DNA of 64,000 nt from contig NZ_CP025066.1 in the NCBI RefSeq assembly GCF_002952775.1, positions 1,736,001-1,800,000 on the forward strand. The letters are read 5' to 3'. The stretch is from Halalkaliarchaeum desulfuricum (GTDB taxonomy: Archaea; Halobacteriota; Halobacteria; Halobacteriales; Haloferacaceae). The position numbers and the translations under genes were made by a program. Positions within the stretch are counted from its first letter, which is position 1, and every line of letters begins with the position of its first letter. This document shows positions 23,587 through 29,823 of the stretch, in pieces. The notes under the pieces are model-generated. The model worked only from the letters and a program-made list of their open reading frames with translations. It was not told the origin of the DNA and did not search any database.

Positions 23587-24387
23587 TCACTCGACGTACT
23601 CACAGACAATCCACACACACGCGAGAGCGAGGACGATCCCGGCGACGACGTCCAGCGCCCAGTGGATCCCCAGATACATCGTCGAGAACACGACGCCGGT
23701 CGCAAGGATCCCCGACAGCACCGTCCACAACGGGTAGACGTCGCGAGTCCGATACGCGAGCGCAGCCACGGTCACCGAAAGCGAGGTGTGCAGCGACGGG
23801 AAGACGTTGGATCTGATGTTGATCTGCGTGGTGAGATGCTGGAAATCGGGCGTTGTCGTGTACAGAAGCGACGTCACCATGTCCGGCATCACGTTCCGCG
23901 GGCCGTGTGCGAACACGATCGTGTACACGACGAGCCCGATCGCGTAGTTGAGCGTGTATGCCGCCAGCAGCCGTTTGAGCTGTGTGGACTCCTCGAGCGC
24001 CGCGTACGCGAGGAGAGGGAACACGAGCAGGAACGCGTAGCCGTACACGTACGTCCACGAGAGGAGACGCGTCGCTCCGTCGGTCGCATGTGACTGCAGC
24101 CACGCGACGAACTCCCCCTCGATGGCGAAGATGGTGCCCGTCAGATACAGCCCGTACAGCTGCGACACCGACTGGAGTCCCTCGCGACCGAACGCACTGA
24201 TTACGAGGATAACCCCCAGCGCACCGACGTACGGGGCCACCTCCCTGAGATGGCCTGGAACCGTTCGAACGAGCCCTCGGAGTCGTCTGGGGCCGACGAT
24301 CGTCACCCCAGCGACGACGACCCCGGCCGCGATGACGCTCACCAGAACGAGGACGACGCGGATGAGCGGGGAGAGTTCGGGAAACAT
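23587..24387 (-). CDS. PAP2-superfamily membrane phosphatase
   Basis: A 266-residue membrane protein with about six hydrophobic segments. The catalytic region reads NVFPSLHTSLSVTVAALAYR (about 180-199, His nucleophile-assisting residue in SLHTS) and later MYLGIHWALDVVAGIVLAL, the two conserved blocks of the Aur1/inositol-phosphotransferase-like branch of PAP2 enzymes. It probably dephosphorylates or transfers phospho-headgroups of lipids at the outer face. ATG 24387 is preferred because the longer frame would overlap the upstream gene by 35 bases. The 7-base gap to that gene suggests co-transcription. Confidence 0.8.
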   Translation of the reverse strand: MFPELSPLIRVVLVLVSVIAAGVVVAGVTIVGPRRLRGLVRTVPGHLREVAPYVGALGVILVISAFGREGLQSVSQLYGLYLTGTIFAIEGEFVAWLQSHATDGATRLLSWTYVYGYAFLLVFPLLAYAALEESTQLKRLLAAYTLNYAIGLVVYTIVFAHGPRNVMPDMVTSLLYTTTPDFQHLTTQINIRSNVFPSLHTSLSVTVAALAYRTRDVYPLWTVLSGILATGVVFSTMYLGIHWALDVVAGIVLALACVWIVCEYVE

Positions 24388-24394
24388 GAGCACG

Positions 24395-26212
24395 TCAGGA
24401 TTCCTCCGCGAGTAGTTCCCCGTCGTCACTGTAGCGATACCCCGCCTCGCCGAACGCTTCGCGGGCGCGTTCTTCGTCGAACTCGCCGTCAGGACCCGCG
24501 AAGAACGGCACGACTGGATCCTGCCCGTCCCATGAGAGGTCCGGCGGAACCCACCGTTGCTCCAGCGGACTCGTCGCCGGAACTGCGTAGCCGTCGAACA
24601 CGTCGTCGACGATCTCGCCTTTGTCGAACAATCGGGCGATCGTAACGCGGAACCTGAAATTCGATAGCGGCGCGCGGCGGATGTTGAACCCGACGTGGTA
24701 GAGCGCCCGCGACCGGTCGCTCACCACGGAGGTCGCCGACGATCGAGCGGCACGTGGAAGCGAGTCAGTGCCGAGATTCGAAACCGTCGCGTCTGCCTCG
24801 TCTTCTGCCACCGACTCGACGGCGACCACGTCGGATGGCACGACGGTCAGGTTCAGGCGTTCGAAGGCCGGTCCTCCCTGAAACCGGTCCGGGATGTCGT
24901 CGGCAGCACCGACTGGATGGTCGGGGACCCGCTCGAAGACGACCTCCTCGCCCGCCGTCGCCTCCAGGAATCGGAGCTGCCCGGAGCCCACCGGCTCGTC
25001 GTTCGATCGAACGAGCGCGTCCGTGGTCTCGTCGTTCACTTCGATCCCGGCGATCGTCGCCGCCCCGGTGTACTCTCTCCAGATGTGTTCTGGCAACAGC
25101 GGCACGGTAAATGCCCTGATCGCCACTTCGGGACTTCCGGTTTCGAACCGAACGTCGAATGTCCGGTCATCGACCGGTTCCACGGATTCGACGAGTGACG
25201 AGCGTCCCCGAAACCTGGACGTCGGAATTGCCGATTCCGCCCGCCCCAGCGACGTATCCGCCAGAAACTCGTAGGTGAACGCGACGTCTTCGGAGTCGAG
25301 TGATTCTCCGTCGTGCCAGGAGAGTCCGTCTCGGAGTTCCCCTCGAAGAACCAGATTCTTTCCCTCTTCGCCAGGTTCCTCAACATCGGATCGTTCTCCG
25401 CCGGGTCGTCGCGTCCACCGCTCGAGGAGCCACGGTCGAAACTCGTCGTCGATCCGCCTGACCAGCGGCGCGTAAACCAGTTCGAGCAGGCTCCCGTGCC
25501 GCCGAAACTCCGCGGCGATCGGATTGCGGTTCTCCGTCAAGCGCGGATCGGTCGTCACGAGCCGCAGCGTCGGTTCGGTGTCGTCTCGGCGCGAAAGCGA
25601 CAGGAGGTTTACCGGTTCGATCGGTCTGGGTTCGTGCCACTGATAAAAACGGGTTTCCCTGACGGCGCTGATCTCGTCGGGGAACGCGATCGACACGAAC
25701 GGCTGTGATTCCGCGAGGCGGCGCTGGAGATCGGCTGCCACATCCAGGCGAACGGTGTCCCCCGACGTTCGCTGTCTGGTCAACAGCTCGTCTATGTCCG
25801 GATCGGCGTAGCCGAACGGGTTTTGCCACCCCGGCTCAGCACCGTATTTCGAATGCAACAGCGGGTACAGCGCGTCGGGATCGATTGCCGTCGTTTCGGG
25901 GAGCTGACCGACGTACACGTCGAAGTTCCGGTTCAAAAGCACCTGCCGATACAGCTGCTCTTCGGTCAGCGTGTTGATCCGGGCGTCGACGCCGACCGCG
26001 TCGAGGCGGTCCTCCAGGCTTCGAGCGATACGGACCGCGTTGGGATCGCTGTCGGCTGGCAACGTTCGAATCTCCAGTTCGAGTTGGTCGATCCTGTCGC
26101 GGCCGGCGACGGTCCTGAAGTCGCGAAGACAGCCGGCCGTCCCCGACAGCGCACCTGCTCCAGCCGCCAGAAGCGTCCGACGGGTCGCGGTGGAGCAGGT
26201 ACTCTCGCACAT
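24395..26212 (-). CDS. Dipeptide/oligopeptide-type ABC substrate-binding lipoprotein
   Basis: A 605-residue extracytoplasmic binding protein of the SBP_bac_5 family. The N-terminus has a twin-arginine motif (TRRTLLAAG), a hydrophobic stretch and a lipobox (SGTAGC, Cys28), so it should be exported by Tat and lipid-anchored. Body motifs include LRDGLSWHDGESLDSEDVAF (about 292-311), typical for DppA/OppA proteins. No permease or ATPase genes are adjacent, so it is an orphan component, or its transporter lies elsewhere. Only the PAP2 gene follows. A TATA-like ATTATACGC on the minus strand near 26284-26275 is a likely promoter. Confidence 0.82.
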   Translation of the reverse strand: MCESTCSTATRRTLLAAGAGALSGTAGCLRDFRTVAGRDRIDQLELEIRTLPADSDPNAVRIARSLEDRLDAVGVDARINTLTEEQLYRQVLLNRNFDVYVGQLPETTAIDPDALYPLLHSKYGAEPGWQNPFGYADPDIDELLTRQRTSGDTVRLDVAADLQRRLAESQPFVSIAFPDEISAVRETRFYQWHEPRPIEPVNLLSLSRRDDTEPTLRLVTTDPRLTENRNPIAAEFRRHGSLLELVYAPLVRRIDDEFRPWLLERWTRRPGGERSDVEEPGEEGKNLVLRGELRDGLSWHDGESLDSEDVAFTYEFLADTSLGRAESAIPTSRFRGRSSLVESVEPVDDRTFDVRFETGSPEVAIRAFTVPLLPEHIWREYTGAATIAGIEVNDETTDALVRSNDEPVGSGQLRFLEATAGEEVVFERVPDHPVGAADDIPDRFQGGPAFERLNLTVVPSDVVAVESVAEDEADATVSNLGTDSLPRAARSSATSVVSDRSRALYHVGFNIRRAPLSNFRFRVTIARLFDKGEIVDDVFDGYAVPATSPLEQRWVPPDLSWDGQDPVVPFFAGPDGEFDEERAREAFGEAGYRYSDDGELLAEES

Positions 26213-26274
26213 TTGTTCGGAAGGGTGGCGATCCGTTCGAACCGCCAGATGTTCATCGTATTTCGACGGCGAGC

Positions 26275-26284
26275 GTATAATAGT
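26275..26284 (-). promoter_or_regulatory. TATA box upstream of the binding-lipoprotein gene
   Basis: On the minus strand CACTATTATACGC surrounds 26284-26275, about 63-72 bases upstream of the ATG at 26212. This predicts a 5' untranslated region of roughly 40 bases, longer than for most genes here. Confidence 0.4.
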
Positions 26285-26329
26285 GCTGTGGTGCCTCGGG
26301 ATCAGCCGGGGCTACGGCTACCGGTGAAA

Positions 26330-27046
26330 TCACCGGATTGCGTCGATCAATCGCTCGCCTTCCAGGTAGACGAGCCCGTGACGGTGCGCGTAGGCTGCGG
26401 CGTCGGCCGGCGACAGCGCGGCGCCGGACTCGTCGTCGAGCATCTCACAGACGACGACCGCTGGAGGCAGCTCCGCTCGCTGTGCCAACGCGAGCCCGAG
26501 TTCGGTGTGTCCCTCCCGATCCGCGAGCAGGTTCGGGGCCCCGCGCAGCAGGTGGACGTGTCCGGGGCTCCGGAACTCCTCTGCGAAGTCCGCCGCGGAG
26601 TAGGTTCCCGGGCCCTGAACCGCAGCACTCGCGGCGCCGGACAGCTCCCGGATCGTGAGCGCTCGGTCCTCGTCGGTGATACCCGTGAACGTGTCGCGGT
26701 GATTGACCGGAAGCGAGAACGACGACCGATCGTCGTACGCGAGGTCGTGGTCGCCGGCGGCCGGGTGGTCGATTTCGCCGGCGAGGAACGGCAGTCCGAA
26801 CGTCTCCGCGACCGAATCAGAGAGCGCAACACAGACCAACCCCCCGGCGTCGTTTCGCATCCGTGCGACGTCGGCGGGTCGGACCGCCCCGGCGGGGTAG
26901 ACGAGGTCCGTCTCTCCCTCCCTGTCGTCGAAGTCGTGGACCAACACCGGCTTGCCCGCCGAGAACGCCGCGACCGCCTCTTCGACGGTTCCCCCCTCGA
27001 CGACGCCGTCGCCGAGTGCTCCCGAACTGTTGGGTCGTCGCCGCAT
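26330..27046 (-). CDS. ribB: 3,4-dihydroxy-2-butanone 4-phosphate synthase
   Basis: A 238-residue archaeal RibB, which converts ribulose-5-phosphate to the four-carbon precursor of riboflavin. The acidic metal loop is DFDDREGETDLVYPA (about 38-52), followed by RNDAGGLVCVAL and the region GHVHLLRGAPN...HTELGLALAQRAELPPAVV (quoted in parts) with the catalytic residues and VCEMLDD. It overlaps the preceding kinase gene by one base (TAATG), so it is coupled to the regulator-kinase rbkR. The N-terminal 25 residues are variable. Confidence 0.9.
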   Translation of the reverse strand: MRRRPNSSGALGDGVVEGGTVEEAVAAFSAGKPVLVHDFDDREGETDLVYPAGAVRPADVARMRNDAGGLVCVALSDSVAETFGLPFLAGEIDHPAAGDHDLAYDDRSSFSLPVNHRDTFTGITDEDRALTIRELSGAASAAVQGPGTYSAADFAEEFRSPGHVHLLRGAPNLLADREGHTELGLALAQRAELPPAVVVCEMLDDESGAALSPADAAAYAHRHGLVYLEGERLIDAIR

Positions 27047-27789
27047 TACACCACCCCTCCCTCGATGTCGGTGCCGTCGGCGGGTGTGCCGCCGTGGACC
27101 TCGACGATCAGTTCGTCGCCGTCGGACAGCTCGAGATCCTCCCGGAGCTTGACGGGGGCGATCAGTTCGAGGTTCTCCTCGTCGTGGTGGGTTCGCTCGG
27201 GAACGATGACGTGGGCACGATCGGCGTGTCGGGGATCGCCGGCGGTTCGAACGCTCGCGGGGTAACACGTCGCCGGACCGAACGTTCGTTCCTCGTCCTC
27301 CCAGCCGTCGATCGGAACGCCGTCGATCGACCGCAGCCCGGCGCGGGACCGGACGCTCTCCTCGTCGAGTTCGACGTTCAGCGTTCCCGGGAACGGCTCG
27401 TAGCCGAGTCGCTCTCGGAACTGTTCCATGTAGCCGGAAAGCGAGATGTAGTGGCGCCCCTCGCCCATCCCGCTTGTCACCCGTCCACGCAGCGTGATCG
27501 ACCGTCGCCCCTCGAAGATCCGTCGGTAGTCGGCGTACTCGCGACGCAGTGCCGACTCCCCCTCGTCGGTCACCGCAATCCACTGGCCGTCGCTTACGAC
27601 GTCGCGTTCGAGATGGTCGGCCGCCTCCAGCGCCTGGAGCCGGCGGGAGGCGGTCTGGTTCGACGCGTCGAGTCGATCGGCGAGCTCCGCACACGAGACT
27701 TTCACCGGACCGACGAGGCCGCCATCGAGGGCGACGAGCTTCAGCGTCGCCAGTTCGTCCTGCCCGACGGCGGGTACTGTCCCGGACAT
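27046..27789 (-). CDS. rbkR: Bifunctional transcriptional regulator / CTP-dependent riboflavin kinase
   Basis: A 247-residue two-domain protein. Residues 1-90 are a winged helix-turn-helix ([20 protein letters not shown] as recognition part). Residues about 95-230 are the archaeal CTP-dependent riboflavin kinase: [32 protein letters not shown] and VIVPERTHH are its signatures. This fusion is known in archaea as RbkR, which makes FMN and also represses riboflavin genes. Here it is followed by ribB with a TAATG overlap and preceded by a 14-bp perfect palindrome, which fits autoregulation. ATG 27789 gives the natural N-terminus [20 protein letters not shown]. Confidence 0.9.
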
Positions 27790-27830
27790 ATCTCGACGTT
27801 GGCGGAGGTCGCGGAAAAGCGTATCGGATA

Positions 27831-27844
27831 TGGAACGCGTTCCA
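27831..27844. promoter_or_regulatory. Perfect palindrome, candidate RbkR operator
   Basis: TGGAACGCGTTCCA is a 14-bp perfect palindrome centred about 50 bases upstream of the rbkR start. On the coding (minus) strand it directly follows an AT-rich TATA-like stretch (TTATCATATTTT, 27856-27845). A site at this place would block transcription initiation of rbkR-ribB. Assignment to RbkR is inference from position and from the family's known role. Confidence 0.55.
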
Positions 27845-28056
27845 AAAATATGATAACACCCCGGATCGATTCCGGGATCGTCCTGAACTGACCACCAGTT
27901 TCCCGTTTCGATTTCGTCTGCGGAACGTCTTAAGCAGTCCGCTTCGCGTCGTGGCGGCGCGTTCGTGGCACAGAACAGTTTCGGTTGGGGGCCACAGTCA
28001 GCCCTGTCGCAATCGGCTTCGGAAGGGCCTTTACTGGCCGCGGCAAACGCCCCTGC

Positions 28057-29823
28057 ATGTTCAGGCAGTTCCGGTCGGACGTGGAGTCGGCCCTCGAACG
28101 GGCGCTCTCGGAGCTGGGATATCCGACCGACGATCTCGGGATCGAGGAGCCGCCGACGGACGTGGACGCGACGCTCGCCTCCAGCGTCGCCTTCCGGCTG
28201 GCGGGCGAAGCCGGGGCACCGCCGCCGAAGGTCGCAGCGGAGGTCGCGGGCGCGGTCGAGCCCACGGGGTACGTCGCGACCGCGACCAGCCAGGGGCCGT
28301 ACGTGAACTTCACCACGACCGACGAGTACCTCACGGACACGCTGTCGGACGCCCAAACGGAGGCGTACGGCGCGCTTCCGGACCGGGACACCGCTGTCGT
28401 GGTCGAACACACCAGCGCCAACCCGACGGGGCCCGTCCACGTCGGTCGGGCACGAAACCCGATCGTCGGCGACGCCGTCGCCAACGTGCTCGCGTACGCC
28501 GGCTACGACGTCGACCGCCACTACTACGTCAACGACGCCGGACGCCAGATGGCCGTGTTCACGTGGGCCTACGAGACGTTCGACGAGAGCGATCTCGAGG
28601 CACCGCCCGCCCGCGATCGGATCGAGTACGACCTGGTGCGCTACTACCGGAAGGGGAACCACTACCTCGAGAACGCCGATCCTGACGAGGTTGCGGCCGC
28701 CGAGGAGGAGATCGCTGCGATCCTTCAGGGGCTCGAGGAGGGCAAAGAGGAGGTCTACGAGCGGGTCGGCGAGGTCGTCGACAGCGTGCTCGGCGGGATG
28801 AAGGAGTGTCTCGCCCGGCTTCCCGCGGAGTTCGACGAGTTCATAAAGGAGACGCGGTTCATGCGCGACGGCTCCACCGACGAGGTGGCGGAGCGACTCC
28901 AGGAGACCGACCACGCCGTCTACGAGGAGGACGCCTGGCAGCTCGAACTCGACGACTGGGGGATCGACAAGAACCTCGTGTTCCTCCGGTCGGACGGCAC
29001 GTCGCTGTACACCACTCGGGATCTGGCCCACCACGAGTGGAAGTTCGACAACTACGACCGCGCCGTCACCGTTCTCGGGGAGGACCACAAGCTCCAGGCC
29101 GAGCAGTTGGACGCGGCACTGGAGCTGCTCGGCAACGACGTCGATCAGCTCGATCACGTCATCTACTCGTACGTGAACCTCCCGGAGGGGAAGATGTCCA
29201 CCCGCCGGGGAACCGGCGTGATGCTCGACGATCTGCTCGACGAGTCGATCGACCGGGCGCGCGAGGAGGTACAAAGCCGGATGGACGACCGGATCCGGGA
29301 CGACGAACTGACCGGCGACGACATCGAGCGGATCGCCCGACAGGTCGGCATCGGCGCCGTCCGGTACGACATCGTCGCAAAGCAGCCGACGAAGGCGATC
29401 ACCTTCGAGTGGGACCGCGCGCTGGATTTCGAGGCGCAGTCGGCGCCGTACGTCCAGTACGTCCACGCCCGGTGTTGCGGGATCGAAGCGGAAGCCGCCG
29501 GGGCGGGAATCGAACTCCCCGACGTCGACGCCGAGGTATCCCCGGAACTGCTGGAAACTCCCGAAGAGCAGGAGCTACTCGCCGTCATCGCCCGGTTCCC
29601 AGCGTGCATCGAGGAGGCCGCAGACGAACTGGAGCCGCATCTGGTCGCCACCTACACCCGGGAGTTCGCCGAGACGTTCAACGCGTTCTACCGGGAGTGT
29701 CCCGTAGTGACCGCCGACGACGAGGCGACCGCCAGGGCCCGCCTCGCGCTCGTTCGCGCCGCCCGACACACGATCGCGAACGCGCTGTCGGTGCTCGGCG
29801 TGGAAGCGCCGAAATCGATGTAG
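28057..29823 (+). CDS. argS: Arginyl-tRNA synthetase
   Basis: A 588-residue class I synthetase. The HIGH-equivalent is in [19 protein letters not shown] (PVHVG, about 121-125), and the KMSKS-equivalent is GKMSTRRG near 379-386. The N-terminal Add1 domain (residues 1-95) and the C-terminal DALR anticodon domain (about 470-588, [20 protein letters not shown]) are present. Met at 28057 starts family homology ([20 protein letters not shown]), 24 codons inside the longer frame. It has its own promoter region; the 267 bases upstream hold the rbkR operator region and nothing else recognised. Confidence 0.95.

Follow-up and report, generated by a model that had tools for sequence, protein, structure and literature searches.

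A palindrome upstream of rbkR in Halalkaliarchaeum desulfuricum probably marks the centre of a conserved operator of the rbkR-ribB operon

Does the perfect palindrome in front of the regulator-kinase gene rbkR of Halalkaliarchaeum desulfuricum belong to an operator through which the encoded protein controls its own operon? The question arose in a window of 64,000 nucleotides (contig NZ_CP025066.1, positions 1,736,001 to 1,800,000), to whose first letter the coordinates below refer. RbkR operators have reportedly been predicted in archaea as palindromic, lineage-specific sites at rbkR and at riboflavin genes, and CTP is said to stimulate, and FMN to suppress, the binding of RbkR to DNA. To our knowledge, the published core RbkR regulon always includes rbkR itself. 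An earlier note on this DNA had proposed the 14-bp sequence TGGAACGCGTTCCA as a feedback operator of this kind.

On its predicted domains, the gene at 27789-27046 on the minus strand (27046..27789) is rbkR, because its product combines a winged helix-turn-helix (HTH) with a CTP-dependent riboflavin kinase domain and has the Thermoplasma acidophilum RbkR TA1064 (structures 3cta and 5trd) as its closest solved relative. The C-terminal kinase domain matched PF01982 at 148.5 bits (cut-off 25), while the N-terminal winged HTH passed narrowly (HTH_20, 27.6 bits against 27). The alignment with TA1064 spans residues 32-232 at an E value of 7.1e-38; beginning at residue 32, it takes in the HTH region and preserves the order of the two domains. 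The NCBIfam model PRK14165 scored 231.8 bits, below its cut-off of 279. The next gene, ribB (26330..27046, minus strand; PF00926 at 182.3 bits, TIGR00506 over its cut-off), overlaps rbkR in the sequence TAATG, and the two overlapping genes form one operon. On the 3′ side of ribB, the same strand carries genes for a family 5 solute-binding protein (PF00496; 24395-26212) and a PAP2-type membrane protein (23587-24429). The solute-binding protein gene also follows ribB in the congener G015 and was found in 0 of 80 named loci within the fetched flank. On the other side, argS (28057-29820, plus strand) is divergent to rbkR, its ATG lying about 200 bp from the putative operator; part of argS stands upstream of rbkR in 33 of the 81 loci checked (the 80 named loci and G015).

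The palindrome occupies 27831-27844, 41 bp upstream of the rbkR ATG (27789, minus strand), and both its coordinates and its perfect symmetry were as the earlier note had given them. Perfect 14-bp palindromes are common in the window (22 observed versus 7.4 expected from base composition), so the string by itself proves nothing. Its exact form is retained in only 2 of 89 family loci, and in the congener its counterpart is TGGAACGCATCCCA, which is not an exact copy. We also searched the 3,313,120-bp genome, where the 14-mer had been expected to recur as the mark of a regulon; there is a single exact copy and there are two places with one mismatch, and this expectation was abandoned.

What is conserved is the half-sites, not the palindrome. 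They belong to a 41-bp element (27815..27855, minus strand; matrix score 45.4) built of four CRTNNCR half-sites in alternating orientation with an 18-bp period and ending in a TTWT-type TATA box; put differently, two 18-bp dyads, CRTNNCR-N4-YGNNAYG, stand head to tail and are followed by TTWT, with an approximate consensus of CRTMACRATTCTGNNAYGCATCYCATATYCGRTAYGCTTAT. In the window, all on the minus strand, half-site 1 is TATCATA (27849..27855), half-site 2 is TGGAACG in reverse orientation (27838..27844), half-site 3 is CGTTCCA in forward orientation (27831..27837), and half-site 4 is CGATACG in reverse orientation (27820..27826), next to the TATA-like CTTTT (27815..27819). Half-sites 2 and 3 together are the palindrome. 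Half-site 1 is weak, with two mismatches to CRTNNCR, and this is a point against reading the array as an operator.

Phylogenetic footprinting upstream of rbkR, which the earlier note had suggested for the palindrome, thus brought out the longer element in its place. We collected rbkR upstream regions from 90 of the 147 Haloferacaceae genomes that had an rbkR match, representing 27 genera, and scored them with a 41-bp matrix refined on genera other than that of the window. The element was present in 89 of the 90 loci at scores of at least 30.6 (47.5 in the congener). The one exception, L048, is a degenerate locus, which was left out of the profile model described below and of the counts of exact palindromes and of mutual information. 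With up to 4 mismatches tolerated over the 20 scored positions, the four-half-site array was found in 90/90 upstream regions, against 0/780 shuffled regions and 0/156 regions further upstream, the place chosen by the scan in L048 probably not being the true site. Named loci from GTDB genomes, some of them shared with the family sample and together including Haloferax, Halobellus, Natrinema, Natrialba, Natronomonas and Halorientalis, carried the element in 80 of 80 cases, with scores of at least 31.5. In other halobacterial families, ten of ten loci passed the per-locus 1% shuffle level. A dyad-symmetric site is thus conserved in the rbkR promoter, with the palindrome as only its central pair of half-sites.

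These counts bear on the simplest alternative, that TGGAACGCGTTCCA is a chance palindrome without function. Such a reading would fit the excess of palindromes in the window and the rarity of the exact form among relatives, but each arm is a half-site that 88 of 90 family loci retain with no more than one mismatch, and the two arms recur likewise in 45/57 and 47/57 loci outside the Halobacteria. Because the half-sites are conserved, we reject chance as a full account and regard it as very improbable; for the middle bases alone, perfect symmetry may nevertheless be accidental.

The position of the element also corrects the reading of the promoter. The earlier note had placed the palindrome between an AT-rich, TATA-like stretch and the rbkR start; the palindrome does lie upstream of rbkR, but that AT-rich stretch is on its far side and, from its position, would fall within half-site 1 and the first spacer. 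The conserved TATA-like element is instead CTTTT, between the palindrome and the ATG. It starts 30 bp ahead of the ATG, as does a CTTAT or CTTTT in 62 of the 90 loci, the window included. According to PMC4983044, 72% of the protein-coding transcripts of Haloferax volcanii are leaderless and the haloarchaeal consensus is TTWT for the TATA box and CGAAA for the BRE; with a TATA-like box at this distance, the rbkR start is therefore probably leaderless. A CGAAA-type BRE is absent beside the array in haloarchaea, and half-site 4 occupies its place, so that, by position, CGATACG would lie where TFB is expected to recognize the promoter.

This layout leaves little room for control by RNA. The riboflavin genes of bacteria are often under the control of riboswitches or other RNA leaders, and by analogy a flavin riboswitch could control the operon, with the palindrome as part of its leader. 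We consider the chance of this negligible: a search of 26200-28200 with Rfam models gave no match up to an E value of 1, to an FMN riboswitch or to any other family, a TATA box 30 bp ahead of the ATG leaves hardly any leader, and the palindrome falls on the upstream side of that box.

How specific the element is to rbkR was examined with R1, a sequence-only profile of 68 sites, with at most 4 per genus and the window's own genus excluded. In this genome, R1 found one strong site, the one at rbkR (E 2.8e-6). A second match (L107, E 0.16) looks like chance and lies inside a 238-aa open reading frame (ORF) that reads like a methyltransferase. The four-half-site pattern with two mismatches occurs at two other places in the genome, neither of them promoter-like: one (L430) is inside a 301-aa ORF and the other (L431) at the 3′ end of a 181-aa ORF. 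Across the family, R1 matched 57 of 60 genomes, with the best match at rbkR as judged by the known rbkR places, a result that is partly circular within the 26 training genera. The three negative genomes were the one with the degenerate locus (G002), a 56% complete one in which no rbkR was found (G012) and one in which the rbkR match begins at a contig end (G050). In genome G017, another rbkR copy, a partial one (L428, G017:C8:113270-115800), lies some 2 kb away and has an operator match of its own (E 1.1e-5); a run of N follows it, and an assembly artefact is possible. Among the weaker R1 matches, 22 loci were followed, and no relative of RibB, RibH, ArfA or ArfC adjoined them; one was a copy of RbkR. 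Eight proteins from six of these loci gave Pfam matches of methyltransferase, cytochrome b5-like, UPF0060 and IclR type, and three had no match.

Similar sites had also been anticipated at other riboflavin genes, and here the expectation failed: in this genome, no dyad above shuffle level and no site comparable to that at rbkR stands upstream of ribH, arfC or either copy of arfA. Over 47 upstream regions of ribH, arfA and arfC, the matrix score was never above 7.2. In a sample of 15 family genomes, arfA, the first gene of the pathway, nonetheless had one dyad exceeding the 99% shuffle level at 7 of 17 loci, against 0/15 for ribH and 0/15 for arfC. The best of them, CATAACGAAACTGAGACG (L258, genome G078), scored 20.2, compared with a median of 18.7 at rbkR. 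The strength of R1 at rbkR only, and the lack of riboflavin genes at its weaker matches, indicates that rbkR-ribB is the sole recognizable target in this genome. The predicted control of rbkR-ribB is thus supported by a conserved element at the promoter of two overlapping genes, but a wider regulon taking in ribH, arfA and arfC of this genome is not. From the dyads, arfA is probably a further target in certain other genera, though not in this genome. This genome has two GTP cyclohydrolase III (arfA-type) genes (L253 and L268; C1:946980-947693 and 2562453-2563166); among the 15 genomes searched, only it and G022 have two arfA-type matches over the family cut-off.

Beyond the Halobacteria, R1 also picked out the promoter of rbkR in further classes of the phylum, methanogens included. 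At 14 of 16 loci followed (L304-L319; 3 halobacterial and 11 not), both rbkR and ribB adjoined the match; at the other two, L311 and L319, this gene pair was not found beside it. Locus L319 (G263:C6) has a perfect TGAGATGCATCTCA away from rbkR, with none of the five riboflavin proteins in the fetched flanks and a next ORF without a Pfam match. In these other classes, the core is often TGAGATGCATCTCA, set in the same array, as in CATCTCATATTTGAGATGCATCTCATATTTGAG (L355). The non-halobacterial sample comprised 57 of the 94 genomes with an RbkR match. The rbkR upstream region exceeded the per-locus 1% shuffle level in 45 of the 57, compared with 2/57 for control regions (-400 to -200). A significant site was missing in the remaining 12/57, including every examined locus of families f19, f22, f25 and f30. 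In genus g96 (family f26, methanogen side), neither an RbkR match nor an R1 match at E 0.1 was found (0/5 each; G282, G298, G308, G329 and G337). With at most one mismatch, half-sites 2 and 3 were kept in 45/57 and 47/57 of the non-halobacterial loci, and half-sites 1 and 4 in 23/57 and 36/57. Half-sites 2 and 3 being the most widely kept, the palindrome appears to mark the most widely kept, and perhaps the oldest, part of the operator.

The distance from array to gene varies, and in many non-halobacterial genomes the array is nearer the start of the rbkR coding match than in haloarchaea. The shorter distance in many genomes of the methanogen side suggests that the operator moved relative to the core promoter. 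Exact TTTAWA occurred 11 times upstream and 4 times downstream of methanogen arrays (n = 37 loci), which is too weak to place a TATA box. We tentatively propose, at somewhat short of even odds, that a single ancestral RbkR operator of alternating CATCTCA-type half-sites, with an 18-bp period and a TGAGATGCATCTCA-like core, has been kept at rbkR throughout the phylum and was moved relative to the core promoter with its geometry intact.

The same comparisons weigh on the possibility that some other regulator binds the element, or that it is an extension of the core promoter, and that RbkR is simply what the gene downstream encodes. The link between RbkR and the element is one that we infer here, and in haloarchaea the end of the element does overlap the core promoter (TATA and BRE). 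Against this, the element stays with rbkR phylum-wide despite its changing distance to the gene, and arfA is the only other tested pathway gene with a dyad. It is also near-unique in genomes, so it is no general promoter element. We judge this alternative unlikely. Because the element is conserved at rbkR across the Halobacteria and much of the phylum, and because rbkR and ribB overlap, we favour the reading in which the palindrome forms the middle pair of half-sites in an operator through which RbkR would control its own operon, rbkR-ribB, and assign it a probability of about 0.85.

Under that operator reading, RbkR would be the protein that binds the 41-bp array, as one or two dimers, and the flavin or CTP held in its kinase domain would set the binding. 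Two dimers may bind the array cooperatively; mutual information between half-site positions did not single out the pairs that would form a dimer. As the operator would abut the TATA box on its upstream side and half-site 4 would cover the BRE position, bound RbkR could block TFB/TBP and repress rbkR-ribB, an outcome that we hold to be slightly better than even. The opposite sign of control, with the same operator, is the less probable but a real possibility: FMN-free RbkR upstream of the TATA box would recruit TFB/TBP, and FMN would release it. The haloarchaeal array does lie upstream of the TATA box, where half-site 4 takes the place of a CGAAA-type BRE, and the stimulation by CTP and suppression by FMN attributed to RbkR fit an activator better than a repressor; if FMN suppresses DNA binding, feedback then requires an activator. 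Half-site 4 over the BRE position would, on the other hand, hinder TFB, and many methanogen arrays are much closer to the gene start, a place more typical of repressors. The relocation of the operator could itself mark a switch between repression and activation.

The element is, on good support, a member of a kind already published, RbkR with lineage-specific operators. The rbkR locus of the window shares with the archaeal RbkR regulons, as these are reported, a winged HTH joined to a CTP-dependent riboflavin kinase and a palindromic putative operator at rbkR. In Haloferax volcanii, HVO_0326/HVO_0327 (rbkR-ribB) are annotated in PMC8305020 as a bifunctional gene regulator and enzyme beside ribB; that article cites Rodionova et al. 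2017 for RbkR, and its accessible part gives no operator for the pair. Other Haloferax species in our sample carry the same element as the window. The phylum-wide geometry of the operator and its positional shift might be the parts that are new to a specialist.

Archaea control vitamin B2 synthesis with a protein that serves as FMN-making kinase and regulator alike, and the element supplies an exact, testable candidate operator for haloarchaea, some of which are amenable to genetic manipulation. Natural variants that differ in operator position across the phylum could decide whether RbkR is a repressor or an activator and how many of its dimers take part.
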